Assembly: GCF_027706745.1 (NCBI RefSeq) | Contig: NZ_JAQFWP010000022.1 | Location: forward strand, 1 to 64,000 | DNA: 64,000 nt | Direction: 5' to 3' | From: Nocardiopsis suaedae | GTDB lineage: Bacteria; Actinomycetota; Actinomycetes; Streptosporangiales; Streptosporangiaceae | Part shown: positions 18,620-45,400 of the stretch, one piece after another | How the letters are laid out: the number at the start of each line of letters is the position of its first letter | Numbering within the stretch: the stretch's first letter is position 1 | Notes under the pieces: generated by a model | Seen by the model: the letters and a program-made list of their open reading frames with translations, nothing else | The model's database searches: none | Told to the model about the DNA's origin: nothing | Position numbers and translations under genes: made by a program

Positions 18620-18693
18620 CGGGACGTAGCGCAGTTTGGCAGCGCACTTGACTGGGGGTCAAGGGGTCGTGGGTTCAAATCCCGCCGTCCCGA
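18620..18693 (+). tRNA. tRNA-Pro (anticodon GGG)
   Basis: Cloverleaf folds fully: acceptor CGGGACG/CGTCCCG with discriminator A, D arm GCGC/GCGC, anticodon stem CTTGA/TCAAG around the loop CTGGGGG (anticodon GGG), and T arm GTGGG-TTCAAAT-CCCGC. CCA is not encoded. It differs at only two positions from the inverted copy near 28.9 kb. Confidence 0.97.
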
Positions 18694-18706
18694 CATATCA
18701 GAGCAG

Positions 18707-28396: not shown

Positions 28397-28851
28397 TGAG
28401 CGGCCCGAACCACCGATGCGTCAACGGCCGTCGAACGGATTTCTCCATGGCGTGGGCATCCCGTCACCCGACAGATGACCGGGCGCCCATCTGCCGCCGG
28501 TGTGATGGGCCGGCTCCGCTGCCGACAGCCGCGGTGCTCCGCTCCCGCCGCCACAGAGGAACCCGGTGGTCCAAGCCTTCGAGTTCAGGAAGCGCCCTCG
28601 GAACCCGTCGCATCACGAGGAGCGTGCCAGCGTTCGGTTCCGGTGTGATGGCGCGCGGAAACCGCAGGGCTTTCCCAAGAGAGCCCAAGGGGCGACACCG
28701 GTCACCTCCGGTACGGGTCCGCGTCGTTCAGCGTGGACCGGGGGCACTGGAATCCCTCGGTGGAACCCGCCATCAAGCGATACCGCTCCCGATACGTGCC
28801 CTCACCGGAAACGCAAAAGGGGCGCCCACCAAGGTGAGCACCCCTCATCTG
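28397..28851. other. Gene-free interval between RNase and tRNA genes
   Basis: Apart from the tRNA terminator at its right end, I see no supported gene, repeat or operator. Frames that stay open here run into the antisense of the tRNA. Confidence 0.45.
28815..28845 (-). terminator. Terminator of the minus-strand tRNA-Pro
   Basis: On the minus strand AGGGGTGCTCACC pairs with GGTGGGCGCCCCT (two G:U pairs) and is followed by TTTT, directly after the tRNA: a canonical intrinsic terminator. Confidence 0.8.
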
Positions 28852-28925
<74 letters not shown>

Positions 28926-36899: not shown

Positions 36900-37946
36900 T
36901 CAGCGCCGGTTGACCGCCGTCGAGCCGCGCACCACCAGTTCCGGGGTATAGCGCACCCGCTCGTGTGTGTGGTCGGGGTCGTGCAGCTCCCCGAGGAGCA
37001 GGCGCATCGCCGCGCAGCCCAGCTCGTACTTGGGCTGGGCCACCGTGGTCAGCCCCGGATGCACCAGGGAGGCGGGCGCCACATCGTCGTACCCGACCAC
37101 CGACAGGTCGCTCGGCGCGCTCAGGCCGCGCTCCCCCAGCCCCTTCAGGACGCCGAGCGCGAGCTGGTCGTTGGCGCAGAACACGGCGGTCGGGCGCCGC
37201 CCCGGCCCTCCGGCCAGGACCTCCTCCACCGCCTTCTCCCCGGACTCGGCGTTGAGCTGGGCCGTGTGCACCACGCGCACGGCCGCCTCCGGGTCGATGC
37301 CCACCTCGGCCAGGCCCTCGCGCAGGCCCTGGAGCCGGGTGCGGCACTGCTCCAGCCCCTCGGGCCCGCTCAGGAAGGTGATGCGCTCGTGCCCCAGACC
37401 GATCAGGTGGCGCGCCGCGGCCGCCCCGCCGGCGAGGTTGTCGACCGAGACGCTGCACGCCACTTCGGGGCCGACGTCGCCGCGGTCCAGAAGGACCCCG
37501 CTCACCCCCTGCTTGCGCAGCCACAACAGGTCGGCGGTGTCACCGTCGACGGGCATGACCACCGCTCCGGCGGCCCGCTGCTCGGCAAGCAGGCGGGCCG
37601 AGCGCCGCTGCCGGTCGCTGCGCTCGGCCGAATTCAGCAGCACGACCGCCAGGCCGTCCTCGGCGGCGACGTCCTCGACCCCTTGGGCGACCTCGGTGAA
37701 GAACGGGTTGGTGACGTCGAGGACGACGAGGCCGATGGAGTCGCTGCGCCCCGAGCGCAGGTTGCGCCCGGAGGAGTTGCGCACGTAGTCGAGCTCCTCG
37801 ATGGCGCGCTCGACCCGGCGGCGGGTCGCCTCGGAGACGCGCTCGGGGCGGTTGAGCACGTTGGAGACGGTCCCGGCGGACACGCCCGCGCGGGCCGCGA
37901 CGTCGTTGATGCCGACGGGCCGGTCGGCGCGTTCGCTCGGTTCCAC
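36900..37946 (-). CDS. LacI-family transcriptional regulator
   Basis: LacI-type repressor of 348 aa. HTH: VGINDVAARAGVSAGTVSNV (about 11-30), hinge NSSGRNLRSGRS, then a sugar-binding-protein-like sensor domain with GLVVLDVTNPFFTEVAQGV, IGLGHERITFLSGPEG and SVVGYDDVAPASLVHPGLT. GTG start with GGAAGGG 6 nt upstream. The likely autoregulatory operator ATTGAAACGTGTCAAT lies 65 nt upstream. No transporter or glycosidase gene is next to it, so its regulon must be elsewhere or was lost. Confidence 0.9.
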   Translation of the reverse strand: MEPSERADRPVGINDVAARAGVSAGTVSNVLNRPERVSEATRRRVERAIEELDYVRNSSGRNLRSGRSDSIGLVVLDVTNPFFTEVAQGVEDVAAEDGLAVVLLNSAERSDRQRRSARLLAEQRAAGAVVMPVDGDTADLLWLRKQGVSGVLLDRGDVGPEVACSVSVDNLAGGAAAARHLIGLGHERITFLSGPEGLEQCRTRLQGLREGLAEVGIDPEAAVRVVHTAQLNAESGEKAVEEVLAGGPGRRPTAVFCANDQLALGVLKGLGERGLSAPSDLSVVGYDDVAPASLVHPGLTTVAQPKYELGCAAMRLLLGELHDPDHTHERVRYTPELVVRGSTAVNRR

Positions 37947-38154: not shown

Positions 38155-38747
38155 CCCCACGCCGCACCCGCTCCGCCCCCCGTCCCCGCCGCGCGTGAGC
38201 CACCCAACATACAGAGGCGGCCCACCGGCGGCGCGCGGCCGCACCGGCGTCCGGTTCGGGACGGGTGCTCCGGCGGGCCGGGACCTCCGGCCCGCCTTGC
38301 GATCAATTCACGGAAACCGCTGCGTGGGCCCCCGGCGCGTGACAGCATGCATCTGTGCCTCCCACCGGGACCTCTCGGTGGCCGAGCCGACGACGGCCGA
38401 CTCCCCCCTGCAGGCCTGGCGGCACGGTCCCCCGACCCCCCGGGGACTCCCACGGGAGCGTGCGCACGGTCGTCGCCGCGGCCGCGCCACCCGGCGCGGT
38501 GTCCGCCGTCGGTTTCGCCCTATGGAACGGGCGGCGCGGCATGGCCACGGGCCCTCTTGGCCGACGCCGCCGCGGTGCGGGTCCTCCGCTTCCGCCGCGG
38601 ACGCCGACCTTGCGGGGTGTTCCCAGGGCGGGGGCGCCGTTCCCCAGGGCGTCCCCGCCCGCCCCGCTCCGGCCGTGCACTGGCCCTCCCTCGCCTGCCG
38701 CTTCCTGGCCCCCGGCGGGCCGCGTCACCCCCACGGCGCCGCCGCGC

Positions 38748-39494
38748 TCACGAGGCGCGCCGGACCGCGGAGAGATCCGGCTCCAGGCCCATCAGGCCGC
38801 ACCCGTACGCCTTGGCCCTGCCGATGCCCTCCTTGACCGCCTCGGAGAAGGCCCCGGGGTCGGTGACGATCAGCCGACCGGCGAAGGCCGCGGGAAGGAT
38901 CGAGATCTTCAGGCGGGAGTCTCCGCGCGCCTTGGAGCGCTGGTCCACCTTCCTGCCGACGAGCGCGGGACGCGGCTCGGCGGCCGCGTCCGGGGCGCCG
39001 TCGGAGGCCGTGGGGATGACGAAGCCGTGCCGTTCGCCCTGGCGGATCAGCCAGGCCACCTGCTCCTCGGGATCGTGGATCGGCCGCCGCTTCCCGCGCG
39101 CCCGGCCGCCCGGCGCTCCGCCGACCGGCGGGGTGCTGCGGGTCGGATTGGCGACCAGGCGGAAGGCGAACCGCCCGCCCGGGACGGCCGCCGCCAGGAC
39201 CGGTTGCAGGCACGTCACCTTGATCCGCCCGGAGGCGTAGCCGTGGGGCAGGCGGGTCCAGTCGGGCCGCACCCGGCTCTGCACGAGCAGAGAGCGGGCG
39301 GCGGTGCCCTCTCCCACGCGGGCGACGCCGACCTCGTCCATGCGCCAGAGCAGGCCGTGGTGGCGGCGCGCGGCCGCGTCCACGCCGGCCTCGCCGAAGA
39401 CGCTCATCAGTGTGCGGTGCATGTCGTGGACATCGGCGTAGTCGCGCCGGAAGGCGCGCGACATCTCGTTGACGGGGACCCGGCTCAGGAACAA
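38748..39494 (-). CDS. cas6e: Solitary type I-E CRISPR endoribonuclease Cas6e (Cse3/CasE)
   Basis: Cas6e cuts pre-crRNA in its repeat and caps the crRNA in Cascade. This 248-aa protein has the family start MFLSRVPVN, a histidine at position 26 (ADVHDMHRTLMSVF) that aligns with the catalytic His20 of E. coli Cas6e, the core FRLVANPTRS and EEQVAWLIRQGERHGF segments, and the C-terminal glycine-rich RNA-binding loop GIGRAKAYGCGL (223-234). TTG start with GGAG 7 nt upstream. No cas3, cas8e, cse2, cas7, cas5, cas1 or cas2 gene and no array is found within this window; neighbours are LacI regulators. It looks intact rather than decayed. Assignment is from motif recognition. Confidence 0.85.
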   Translation of the reverse strand: MFLSRVPVNEMSRAFRRDYADVHDMHRTLMSVFGEAGVDAAARRHHGLLWRMDEVGVARVGEGTAARSLLVQSRVRPDWTRLPHGYASGRIKVTCLQPVLAAAVPGGRFAFRLVANPTRSTPPVGGAPGGRARGKRRPIHDPEEQVAWLIRQGERHGFVIPTASDGAPDAAAEPRPALVGRKVDQRSKARGDSRLKISILPAAFAGRLIVTDPGAFSEAVKEGIGRAKAYGCGLMGLEPDLSAVRRAS

Positions 39495-40117
39495 CGATCC
39501 GCTCCAGTCATCTCACCGACGGCGGCCGACGGGCGCGCGGCCGGTCACGCTTCGCGCGGCGTCGTCGGCCGTCGGGCACACGGCGGAGAAGCCGCGCCGT
39601 CGCATGGACGGATCGTCGCCGACCGCTCGGCGGAACCGCCGTTCGAGCGCCCGAGCCCCGGCCGTCGTCGGACGGCACGGAGAGCGATACTAACGCCCGC
39701 CGACGGCGATCCGCGGCGGAGCACCAGGGCTGGCCGATTGAGGACACGACCCACCGGAGATCGCCGCAAGGACGAGTCCGCCCATGCTCCCGTCACACCC
39801 CGGACGGCGGCCATGACCACCGCAAGTCCCACCGCTCGGGCGGACACGACCAGTGTCCGCCGGGGTGGCGTGGTCCGCGTTCGGGTAGGTCGGCGGTTTC
39901 GTTACGCCCCCGGACCAGACCGCCGCCGGGGAGCTGACCGGCGAGCCGCTTTCGGGCGGCGGCCGGCCGCCTCCACCGGAAGGGCGGGGCACCGACCAGG
40001 AGACCCGAGTGCGGCACCGGGCGGTCCCAGCGCCGTAACGGTCGGGCCGACCTCGCCGAACGGGGCATCCACCGCTCACCGCTCCAAGGCGCGCACCACG
40101 GCCGAAGTGAGCGCCCT
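39495..40117. other. Gene-free interval upstream of cas6e
   Basis: The place where cas5e would sit in a normal type I-E operon. No frame resembles Cas5, Cas7 or Cse2 and no direct-repeat array is present; nothing else is recognisable. Confidence 0.45.
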
Positions 40118-41113
40118 TCACCCCTCCAGCACATCGGCGAAGCCCGGCTCGGGGCATCCGCAGCTCCGGCGGGGGATCAGGCGGCCGCACGGCCGCTCCC
40201 TCGGCTCCTCGCCGCCGAGGAGGACCGCGACCGCCCTTTCGGCGACCTCCTCGAAAGGCTGCTCCACCGCGGTCAGGGACGGCACGGTGAACGCCGCGTC
40301 CGGTGTCCCGTCGCAGGCCGCCACCGCCAGCCGCTCCGGCACCGCCACACCGGCGGCGGCCGCCGCGGCGAGCACGCCCACCGCCTGCTCGTCGGTGGCG
40401 GCGAGCAGCGCGCGCGGCAGCTCCCCCCGCGCCGCCAGACCGGCGGTCAGGCGCGCCGCCGACCCGCGCGCATACCCGCAGCGCAGGAGCTCCCCCGCGG
40501 CGGGCGACTCGCGCCAGGCGCGCATCCGCTCGGCCACCGGCCCATCGTCGGCCGGCCCCGCCAGGAACGCGATGCGCTCGTGGCCGTGCCCGCGCAGGTG
40601 CTCCAGGGCCGCGTGTACCCCCGCACGGTCGTCCGCGGCGACCAGCACCGCCCGCGCCCCCTCGGGGCGGTGGTGGACCGCGACCACCGGCACGCCGGCG
40701 TCAGCGGCCGCCGGCGCCGGGTCGTCGGCCCCGTCCGCGGAGGCGACGACGAGCCCGTCGGGCTGGGCGGCGAGGATGCGCTCGACGGCCTCCGCCTGCC
40801 GCTCGGCGTCGTAGCCGGTGGTGGCGACGACCGTGAGCCGCCCCGACCGGGAGAGCGCCGCCTCCAGCGCCCGGCCGAGCGCGGCGAAGTACGGGTTGGC
40901 GGCGTCCGGCAGCACGACCCCGACCAGCCCCGACGACCCCGAGCGCAGCGCCGCCGCCACCCGGTTGCGGCGATAGCCCAGTTCGGCGGCGGCGGCGAGC
41001 ACCCGCTCCCGGGTGCGCGCCGCGACCGGCCGGGGACCGCCGTTCACCACGTAGCTGACCACCGCGACCGAGGTCCCGGCCCTGCGGGCCACGTCGGCCA
41101 TGGTCACCGCCAT
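40118..41113 (-). CDS. LacI-family regulator of the nucleoside operon
   Basis: LacI-type repressor, 331 aa. HTH: TMADVARRAGTSVAVVSYVV (4-23), followed by VVLPDAANPYFAALGRALE, LRGHGHERIAFLAGPADDG and a C-terminal VEQPFEEVAERAVAVLLGGE typical of the sensor domain, ending in a Cys/Arg-rich tail. It diverges from the nucleoside hydrolase/adenosine deaminase operon; the palindrome TCTAATCGTTTAGA lies in between. It probably represses that operon and itself; the effector is likely a nucleoside or base (inference). Confidence 0.9.
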   Translation of the reverse strand: MAVTMADVARRAGTSVAVVSYVVNGGPRPVAARTRERVLAAAAELGYRRNRVAAALRSGSSGLVGVVLPDAANPYFAALGRALEAALSRSGRLTVVATTGYDAERQAEAVERILAAQPDGLVVASADGADDPAPAAADAGVPVVAVHHRPEGARAVLVAADDRAGVHAALEHLRGHGHERIAFLAGPADDGPVAERMRAWRESPAAGELLRCGYARGSAARLTAGLAARGELPRALLAATDEQAVGVLAAAAAAGVAVPERLAVAACDGTPDAAFTVPSLTAVEQPFEEVAERAVAVLLGGEEPRERPCGRLIPRRSCGCPEPGFADVLEG

Positions 41114-44683: not shown

Positions 44684-45400
44684 ATGCACAGCGAGGGGAC
44701 GATCGCATCGGTCAATACGGGACCCGTCATCGAGGCCGACTGGGCCGGGAGGATGAAACGGACGGCGATCGACAAACGGTCCGCCGCCGGGGCGGTGGTC
44801 GTCGGGCTGCTCGGGCTCGACGGGGACGACCAGGCCGACCGGGAGCACCACGGCGGGCCCGACAAGGCCGTCTACGCCTACGCCCGCGAAGACCTCGACG
44901 CCTGGCAGGCACGCCTCGGGCGCCCCCTCCGCGACGGGGCCTTCGGGGAGAACCTCACCACCGTCGGGGTCGACGTCACCGGCGCCGTGATCGGCGAGCA
45001 GTGGCGCGTCGGCACCACGCTCCTCGAGGTCACCCTGCCGCGCACCCCCTGCCGGGTGTTCCAGGCCTGGATCGGTGAGAACCACTGGGTCACGTCCTTC
45101 ACCGAGGAGGGGCGCTTCGGCGTCTACCTCCGCGTCCTCGACGAAGGGCGGGTGCGCGCCGGCGACCCCGTGGAGGTGGTGCACCGGCCCGACCACGGGA
45201 TCACCTCCGCCGCCGGGTTCGCCGCCGGGCGCGCGGCCGACGTCGGCCTGCTGGAGCGGATCGTCGCCCTGCCCGATGCCGCGACCGCCTGGAAGGAGGT
45301 CCTGGACCGCGCACGTGCCCGGCGGGCGCGCTCCGGTGCGGACGGAGGGGAGAGCAGGGCGCCGGGCACAGGCCCGACCGGGGATGAGATCGGGCTCTAG
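44684..45400 (+). CDS. MOSC-domain protein (YiiM-like)
   Basis: MOSC-fold protein of 238 aa, a relative of the molybdenum-cofactor sulfurase C-terminal domain. Typical segments: DREHHGGPDKAVYAYAREDL, GAFGENLTTVGVDVTGAVIG, then LPRTPCRVFQAWIGENHW, which carries the conserved cysteine. The final 30 residues are disordered. Proteins of this type reduce N-hydroxylated bases or handle sulfur on molybdenum sites; no molybdoenzyme is linked here. Expression appears leaderless. Confidence 0.88.
   Translation: MHSEGTIASVNTGPVIEADWAGRMKRTAIDKRSAAGAVVVGLLGLDGDDQADREHHGGPDKAVYAYAREDLDAWQARLGRPLRDGAFGENLTTVGVDVTGAVIGEQWRVGTTLLEVTLPRTPCRVFQAWIGENHWVTSFTEEGRFGVYLRVLDEGRVRAGDPVEVVHRPDHGITSAAGFAAGRAADVGLLERIVALPDAATAWKEVLDRARARRARSGADGGESRAPGTGPTGDEIGL

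Follow-up and report, generated by a model that had tools for sequence, protein, structure and literature searches.

Cas6e of Thermus thermophilus and of Escherichia coli serves a cas operon and its array, and cleavage by Cas6e leaves an 8-nt handle. According to one article, E. coli Cas6e cleaves at specific repeat positions (PMC4499155). A study of T. thermophilus indicates that its Csm crRNAs likely derive from a Cas6 whose gene lies at another genomic site (PMC5256923), and one Cas6 shared by the I-A and III-B systems of Sulfolobus islandicus is cited in a third article (PMC12814883). Among the open-access literature matches listed, no title concerns a solitary cas6e or CRISPR in Nocardiopsis. 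Here we describe a solitary cas6e (the solo gene) in a 64-kb window of a Nocardiopsis genome, the window being the whole stretch of DNA analysed (64,000 nt).

Results

The solo gene (Table 1) is a real, full-length and apparently intact cas6e, as a first-pass annotation made from the sequence had held. That annotation had named the lack of a significant Cas6e profile match as evidence against itself; the match to PF08798 is strong (E value of 7.2e-53, 180.5 bits against a cut-off of 25) and spans all 223 model positions, and TIGR01907 scored 72.5 bits, above its curated cut-off of 45.2. An AlphaFold2 model of the protein (pLDDT 89.2 and pTM 0.84, from an input alignment of 22 sequences) found its best PDB matches by Foldseek in T. 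thermophilus Cse3 with RNA (2y9h, 2y8w and 3qrp; TM by target of 0.82-0.86), with an E value of 5.8e-20 for 2y8w and, for the same entry, a TM of 0.75 when normalised by query and of 0.86 when normalised by target, and the predicted model is that of a Cas6e fold. His26, which we take to be the catalytic residue of Cas6e, corresponds in the alignment to His26 of T. thermophilus 1wj9 and is unchanged in all 22 aligned Cas6e rows; like the glycine-rich loop, it had been correctly pointed out beforehand. The C-terminal stretch GIGRAKAYGCGL is present as well. The position of Thermus Cse3 Tyr23 is occupied by His, likewise in several operon-borne relatives. In line with the proposed TTG start and its putative ribosome-binding site, both the TTG and the preceding GGAG are the same in all three solo orthologues (see below). 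Further upstream, the block GCGTTAGTATCGCTC lies in a flank in which otherwise 36-42% of the aligned sites differ among the orthologues, and it is a possible promoter.

Table 1. Positions of the features described (window coordinates, unless a locus handle precedes them)
Feature	Position	Strand	Remarks
tRNA-Pro gene	18620-18694	+	GGG anticodon
tRNA-Pro gene	28851-28925	-	GGG anticodon
lacI-family regulator, downstream	36900..37946	-	PF00356 + PF13377; adjoins solo cas6e in all three species
Conserved noncoding element	38303..38660	.	~360 nt; starts ~90 nt downstream of cas6e
Solo cas6e	38748..39494	-	248 aa; TTG start
GGAG stretch before TTG	39495..39516	-	Near-identical across three orthologues; putative ribosome-binding-like role
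Conserved block GCGTTAGTATCGCTC	39682..39696	-	~190 nt upstream of start; identical in 3/3 orthologues
lacI-family regulator, upstream	40118..41113	-	PF00356 + PF13377; common to N. endophytica, not found at that place in N. chromatogenes
Orthologue of N. chromatogenes MOSC-like gene	44684-45343		
Same noncoding element, second listed locus	L086:5515-5909		
C48 fused ORF	L006:790-6036		1748 aa; reads as Cas3-Cse1-Cse2
AbiJ_NTD3-domain gene	L006:8710-10146		Directly 3' of the C48 operon cas6e

The earlier statement that neither an array nor a cas operon accompanies the gene holds for the 64-kb window and for its 88,373-base contig, and fails for the genome as a whole. When the window and the rest of the contig were searched by tblastn (E ≤ 1e-8) for type I-E genes, using as queries 11 Cas proteins and one AbiJ-like protein from the two I-E operons of this genome, the solo gene was the sole match, without adjacent cas3, cse1, cse2, cas7 or cas5, and an array scan of the contig found no CRISPR array. 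Because the gene lies more than 38 kb from either contig end, assembly truncation is unlikely, and an operon cut short in this way was rejected on that distance and on the absence of any other queried operon gene from the contig. The flanking LacI regulators were also confirmed, with gaps of 801 nt from the downstream lacI to cas6e and of 623 nt from cas6e to the upstream one. Elsewhere in the window, two tRNA-Pro genes with the same anticodon lie 10 kb apart on opposite strands.

Orthologues of the solo gene are carried by Nocardiopsis chromatogenes (88% identical) and N. endophytica (86%), in both cases beside the same downstream lacI, which is 99% identical in N. endophytica and, in N. chromatogenes, 100% identical for the 134 aa that the cas6e contig contains and 96% for the remainder, on another contig (C7 of that genome). 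The order lacI, cas6e, noncoding element, lacI is common to the window and N. endophytica; in N. chromatogenes the place of the upstream lacI is taken by a gene judged by eye to be MOSC-like. In a fourth species of the genus (G004), the MOSC-like gene adjoins the element with no cas6e between them, and a separate contig carries the orthologue of the downstream lacI; cas6e was therefore gained or lost at this place, and the element persisted. The annotation had also allowed that relatives might carry here a full cas operon, truncated in this assembly; the corresponding loci of N. chromatogenes, N. endophytica and G004, whose contig ends 52 nt past the element, showed no such operon.

When eight candidates were scored in each of 341 family genomes, 17 of these, the source genome included, had a match to the solo protein at E ≤ 1e-40. 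The surroundings were inspected for all 16 others: two have the gene solo at the same place (the two species above), eleven have it in operons, and in three the operon is lost or broken (G315, G292 and G068). The best match outside the genus in this set, 68% identical, is the Cas6e of an I-E operon in another genus of the family (G224), where the gene is preceded by cas3, cse1, cas7 and cas5 and has an array nearby. A two-peptide-pattern scan of genome contigs returned eight loci, namely the same two solos and six operon-borne relatives from Amycolatopsis (three), Dactylosporangium, Planobispora (apparently G197 of the 341-genome set) and Actinokineospora. In a tree of 25 Cas6e, in which 11 of 22 inner branches are left open and a long-branch warning applies, C48 included, the three solos form one clade (100/99), sister to the operon-borne G224 enzyme (100/99), and the enzymes of the genome's two operons, on contigs C3 and C48, are far from it. 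As the solo protein is only 32% and 28% identical to these two and sits on a separate branch, it is no copy of either, and duplication of the genome's own operon cas6e was rejected. A mobile-element origin was rejected too: at E ≤ 1e-15 the query matches 39 plasmid records, none of which reaches 60% identity (the best 20 of the 39 are all annotated cas6e), and the matches to two phage records are partial, covering 56% and 36% of the query. Among same-branch loci, three I-E operons seem to be in decay (L049, L054 and L059): cas5 fragments remain in the first two, in which cas6e is open, and the cas6e of L059 has no N-terminal part in frame.

The genome-wide search for I-E components that the annotation had called for brought to light two operon-borne cas6e, for a total of three in the 6.97-Mb genome, and arrays on at least six contigs. 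The C3 operon has cas3, cse1, cas7, cas5 and cas1 recognised by HMM, cse2 by similarity, and cas6e, and is flanked by arrays of 26 and 5 repeats, one per side. The C48 operon consists of one fused ORF, then cas7, cas5 and cas6e, with neither an array nor a cas1 match found on the contig; the fused ORF retains the HD motif and Walker A, and its helicase may be inactive because it reads EDPG, STA and ERIGR where the C3 Cas3 has DEAH, SAT and QRMGR. A gene with an AbiJ_NTD3 domain follows this operon (Table 1). Dispersed arrays were found on C7 (about 32 repeats), C11 (about 14), C14 (about 28), C17 (about 10) and C79 (about 6; the larger of two counts in each case), with no match to the operon proteins in a 20-kb stretch around each array, and five of the six known array contigs (these and C3) are without a cas match near the array. 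These counts cover repeats resembling known I-E repeats; a looser pattern gave 117 repeats genome-wide, about those of the listed arrays. In its position, apart from effector genes and with the arrays on other contigs, the solo gene is arranged as expected of a Cas6 that works in trans. No spacer was shared between different arrays among those parsed, in a parse that included reverse-strand readings and miscounted some repeats (12 against 14 for C11). Many dispersed I-E arrays with slightly differing repeats are likewise seen across the genus (N. chromatogenes, N. endophytica and G002, besides the present genome).

The last eight bases of the repeats, which would form the handle, differ between these groups of arrays. 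In the three species with the solo gene, operon arrays end in CTGTTCCC and dispersed arrays mostly in ATGGTCCC or ATGGACCC (ATGGWCCC), the exceptions being one N. chromatogenes array (C266), which ends in ATGTTCCC, and some N. endophytica repeats ending in ATGAACCC or ATGGACCG. In G002 and G005, where the solo gene is absent and dispersed arrays are present, operon arrays end in ATGGTCCC (for G002, judging by the first-listed of 125 matches), and the G005 operon contig additionally bears GTGAGCCC repeats; G004, also without the gene, gave three scattered repeat matches. Both the C7 array and the array beside the G224 operon end in ATGGTCCC. We read these endings as pointing to a second Cas6e kept for a second repeat class, in an association that is effectively one observation because the three solo-bearing species are one clade. 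Against this reading, C7 and C14 have leaders similar to the leader of one C3 operon array, and the hairpin stems are nearly alike in the arrays seen.

For the solo gene, dN/dS by the NG86 method in the three species pairs was 0.24, 0.30 and 0.15 (0.056/0.238, 0.071/0.236 and 0.045/0.294), lower values (0.05-0.11) were obtained with YN00, and variable sites were distributed 22/19/63 over the codon positions. The operon cas6e of the same species gave 0.23, 0.19 and 0.13 (0.030/0.132, 0.034/0.181 and 0.022/0.165), and for the neighbouring genes dN/dS between the window and N. endophytica was 0.005/0.180 (downstream lacI), 0.045/0.226 (upstream lacI) and 0.037/0.128 (a nucleoside hydrolase). Judged by these rates, the solo gene evolves somewhat faster than the operon copy, yet is clearly constrained.

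The noncoding element next to the gene has Jukes-Cantor distances of 0.058 (N. endophytica), 0.094 (N. chromatogenes) and 0.213 (G004), and evolves about 4 times (N. endophytica) or 2.5 times (N. chromatogenes) more slowly than the synonymous sites of cas6e (dS 0.24). With two candidates scored per genome, 181 of the 341 family genomes have some match at E ≤ 0.001; among the matches listed, long ones (395-461 bases) occur only in the present genome, N. chromatogenes, N. endophytica and G004, four species of the genus of which one has no cas6e beside the element, and the remainder do not reach 100 bases and resemble chance matches in DNA rich in G+C. The element is also listed at locus L086 (Table 1). 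A coding function was rejected, the 44 variable columns being split 17/14/13 by codon phase, as was a known RNA, nothing scoring above the Rfam gathering thresholds (five weak sub-threshold matches were obtained in a wider stretch).

Discussion

Our preferred reading, to which we assign a probability of about 0.45, is that the solo gene encodes a stand-alone functional Cas6e, kept as an extra pre-crRNA-processing enzyme for dispersed arrays in trans. The gene, from an I-E branch to which neither of the genome's two operons belongs, would be transcribed alone, its own operon having been lost or the gene having arrived by itself, and would then have been retained as an additional processor. On RNA transcribed from the dispersed arrays, its product would recognise the CCCCGC...GCGGGG hairpin and cleave it at the stem's 3' base, giving 8-nt 5' handles (AUGGWCCC), and the resulting crRNAs would be used in trans by an operon-encoded Cascade; expression, cleavage, the arrays served and Cascade loading are our inference. 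The solo enzyme probably still works, since two related species have kept it too. Of the three roles that the first-pass annotation had offered, the one with most support is the processing of a distant array in trans, given that other contigs of the genome carry at least five I-E arrays that have no cas match nearby. Against a need for the solo enzyme, the two other Cas6e of the genome could cut the same hairpin, and the C3 system may serve the C7 and C14 arrays by itself, given the resemblance of their leaders to a C3 array leader. G002 and G005, which have dispersed arrays and no solo gene, also count against this reading, as do the lack of uniformity among dispersed arrays, the His at the position of Thermus Tyr23 and the somewhat faster evolution of the solo gene.

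Relic status, the second of those roles, has to be divided between origin and present state. Operon loss may describe how the gene became solitary, because the genes nearest to it in other genera are operon-borne, and Cas6e can outlive its operon, three of the 16 other genomes keeping a cas6e of this branch with the operon gone or broken. That the gene is now a functionless survivor, still undecayed, is unlikely: dN/dS of 0.15-0.30 and third-position-biased change in three species are near the values of an operon gene, and, with the gene kept in two further species beside the same lacI, suggest that it is probably not a decaying relic. The flanks point the same way, as no cas5 or cas1 query was among the best 20 matches in a search for operon remnants reaching to about 1e-6, whereas the same search recovered the cas5 remnants of L054 (1e-39) and L049 (9e-12). 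It was run with composition correction off and loose statistics; the best true flank match (4.6e-11) was the G224 operon read out of frame, in the N. endophytica flank, and reversed flanks gave at best 2.2e-8.

An equally doubtful account is that of a redundant Cas6e, horizontally acquired alone, that raises the enzyme dosage of the C3 or C48 systems and treats all arrays alike. The near identity of the hairpin across arrays would suit it, as would the placing of the nearest non-solo relative in another genus, and the MOSC-like gene adjoining the element without cas6e in G004 is compatible with insertion in the other species. Purifying selection since the split of the three species tells against this account, and an identity of 68% to that nearest relative speaks against its having been the source of a recent transfer.

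We consider it quite improbable that the stand-alone Cas6e is a dedicated maturase for the second handle class, the crRNAs of one genome being split into two pools according to Cas6e and handle, or, more boldly, that it has left CRISPR and processes the adjacent noncoding RNA. A repurposed RNase that regulates a non-CRISPR RNA, such as a transcript of the element, would have in its favour the short distance and slow evolution of that element, and is very unlikely: the element survives without cas6e in G004, no I-E-like repeat was seen within it, its predicted folding is weakly better than that of shuffled sequences (z of -1.4 and -1.6), and covariation is scarce, with two-sided change in 7 of 141 predicted pairs among four sequences. 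The gene may also encode a general hairpin RNase, the annotation's third role, for which we found no positive evidence.

Single cas genes outside operons are readily set aside as debris, yet this one is intact, in place in three species and under a constraint similar to that of the operon copy, in a genome whose dispersed arrays have no cas match close by. With it one could test cleanly whether crRNA pools are partitioned by repeat class through stand-alone Cas6e, and whether 'orphan' I-E arrays are live.

In its profile matches, predicted fold, His26 and glycine-rich C-terminal loop, the solo protein is like the Cas6e (Cse3/CasE) of T. thermophilus (TTHB192; 2y8w, 3qrp) and E. coli CasE (4dzd), and unlike them it is encoded alone, on an 88-kb contig of a genome with two other, operon-borne cas6e. 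The operon-borne G224 enzyme, 68% identical to it, differs by the four cas genes before it and its nearby array. A parallel in arrangement is given by Cas6A and Cas6B of T. thermophilus, also encoded away from the effector and inferred to act in trans on several arrays (PMC5256923); these are other Cas6 proteins and feed a type III complex, whereas the Nocardiopsis case concerns a Cas6e of predicted activity and I-E arrays. The Cas6 of S. islandicus (PMC12814883) resembles the solo Cas6e in being a processing enzyme used across loci, as we propose here, and differs in that one enzyme there serves several systems, while the Nocardiopsis genome has three Cas6e. Cas6 acting in trans has thus already been reported in other systems, of which a selected, solitary Cas6e beside two operon-borne Cas6e is a variant.
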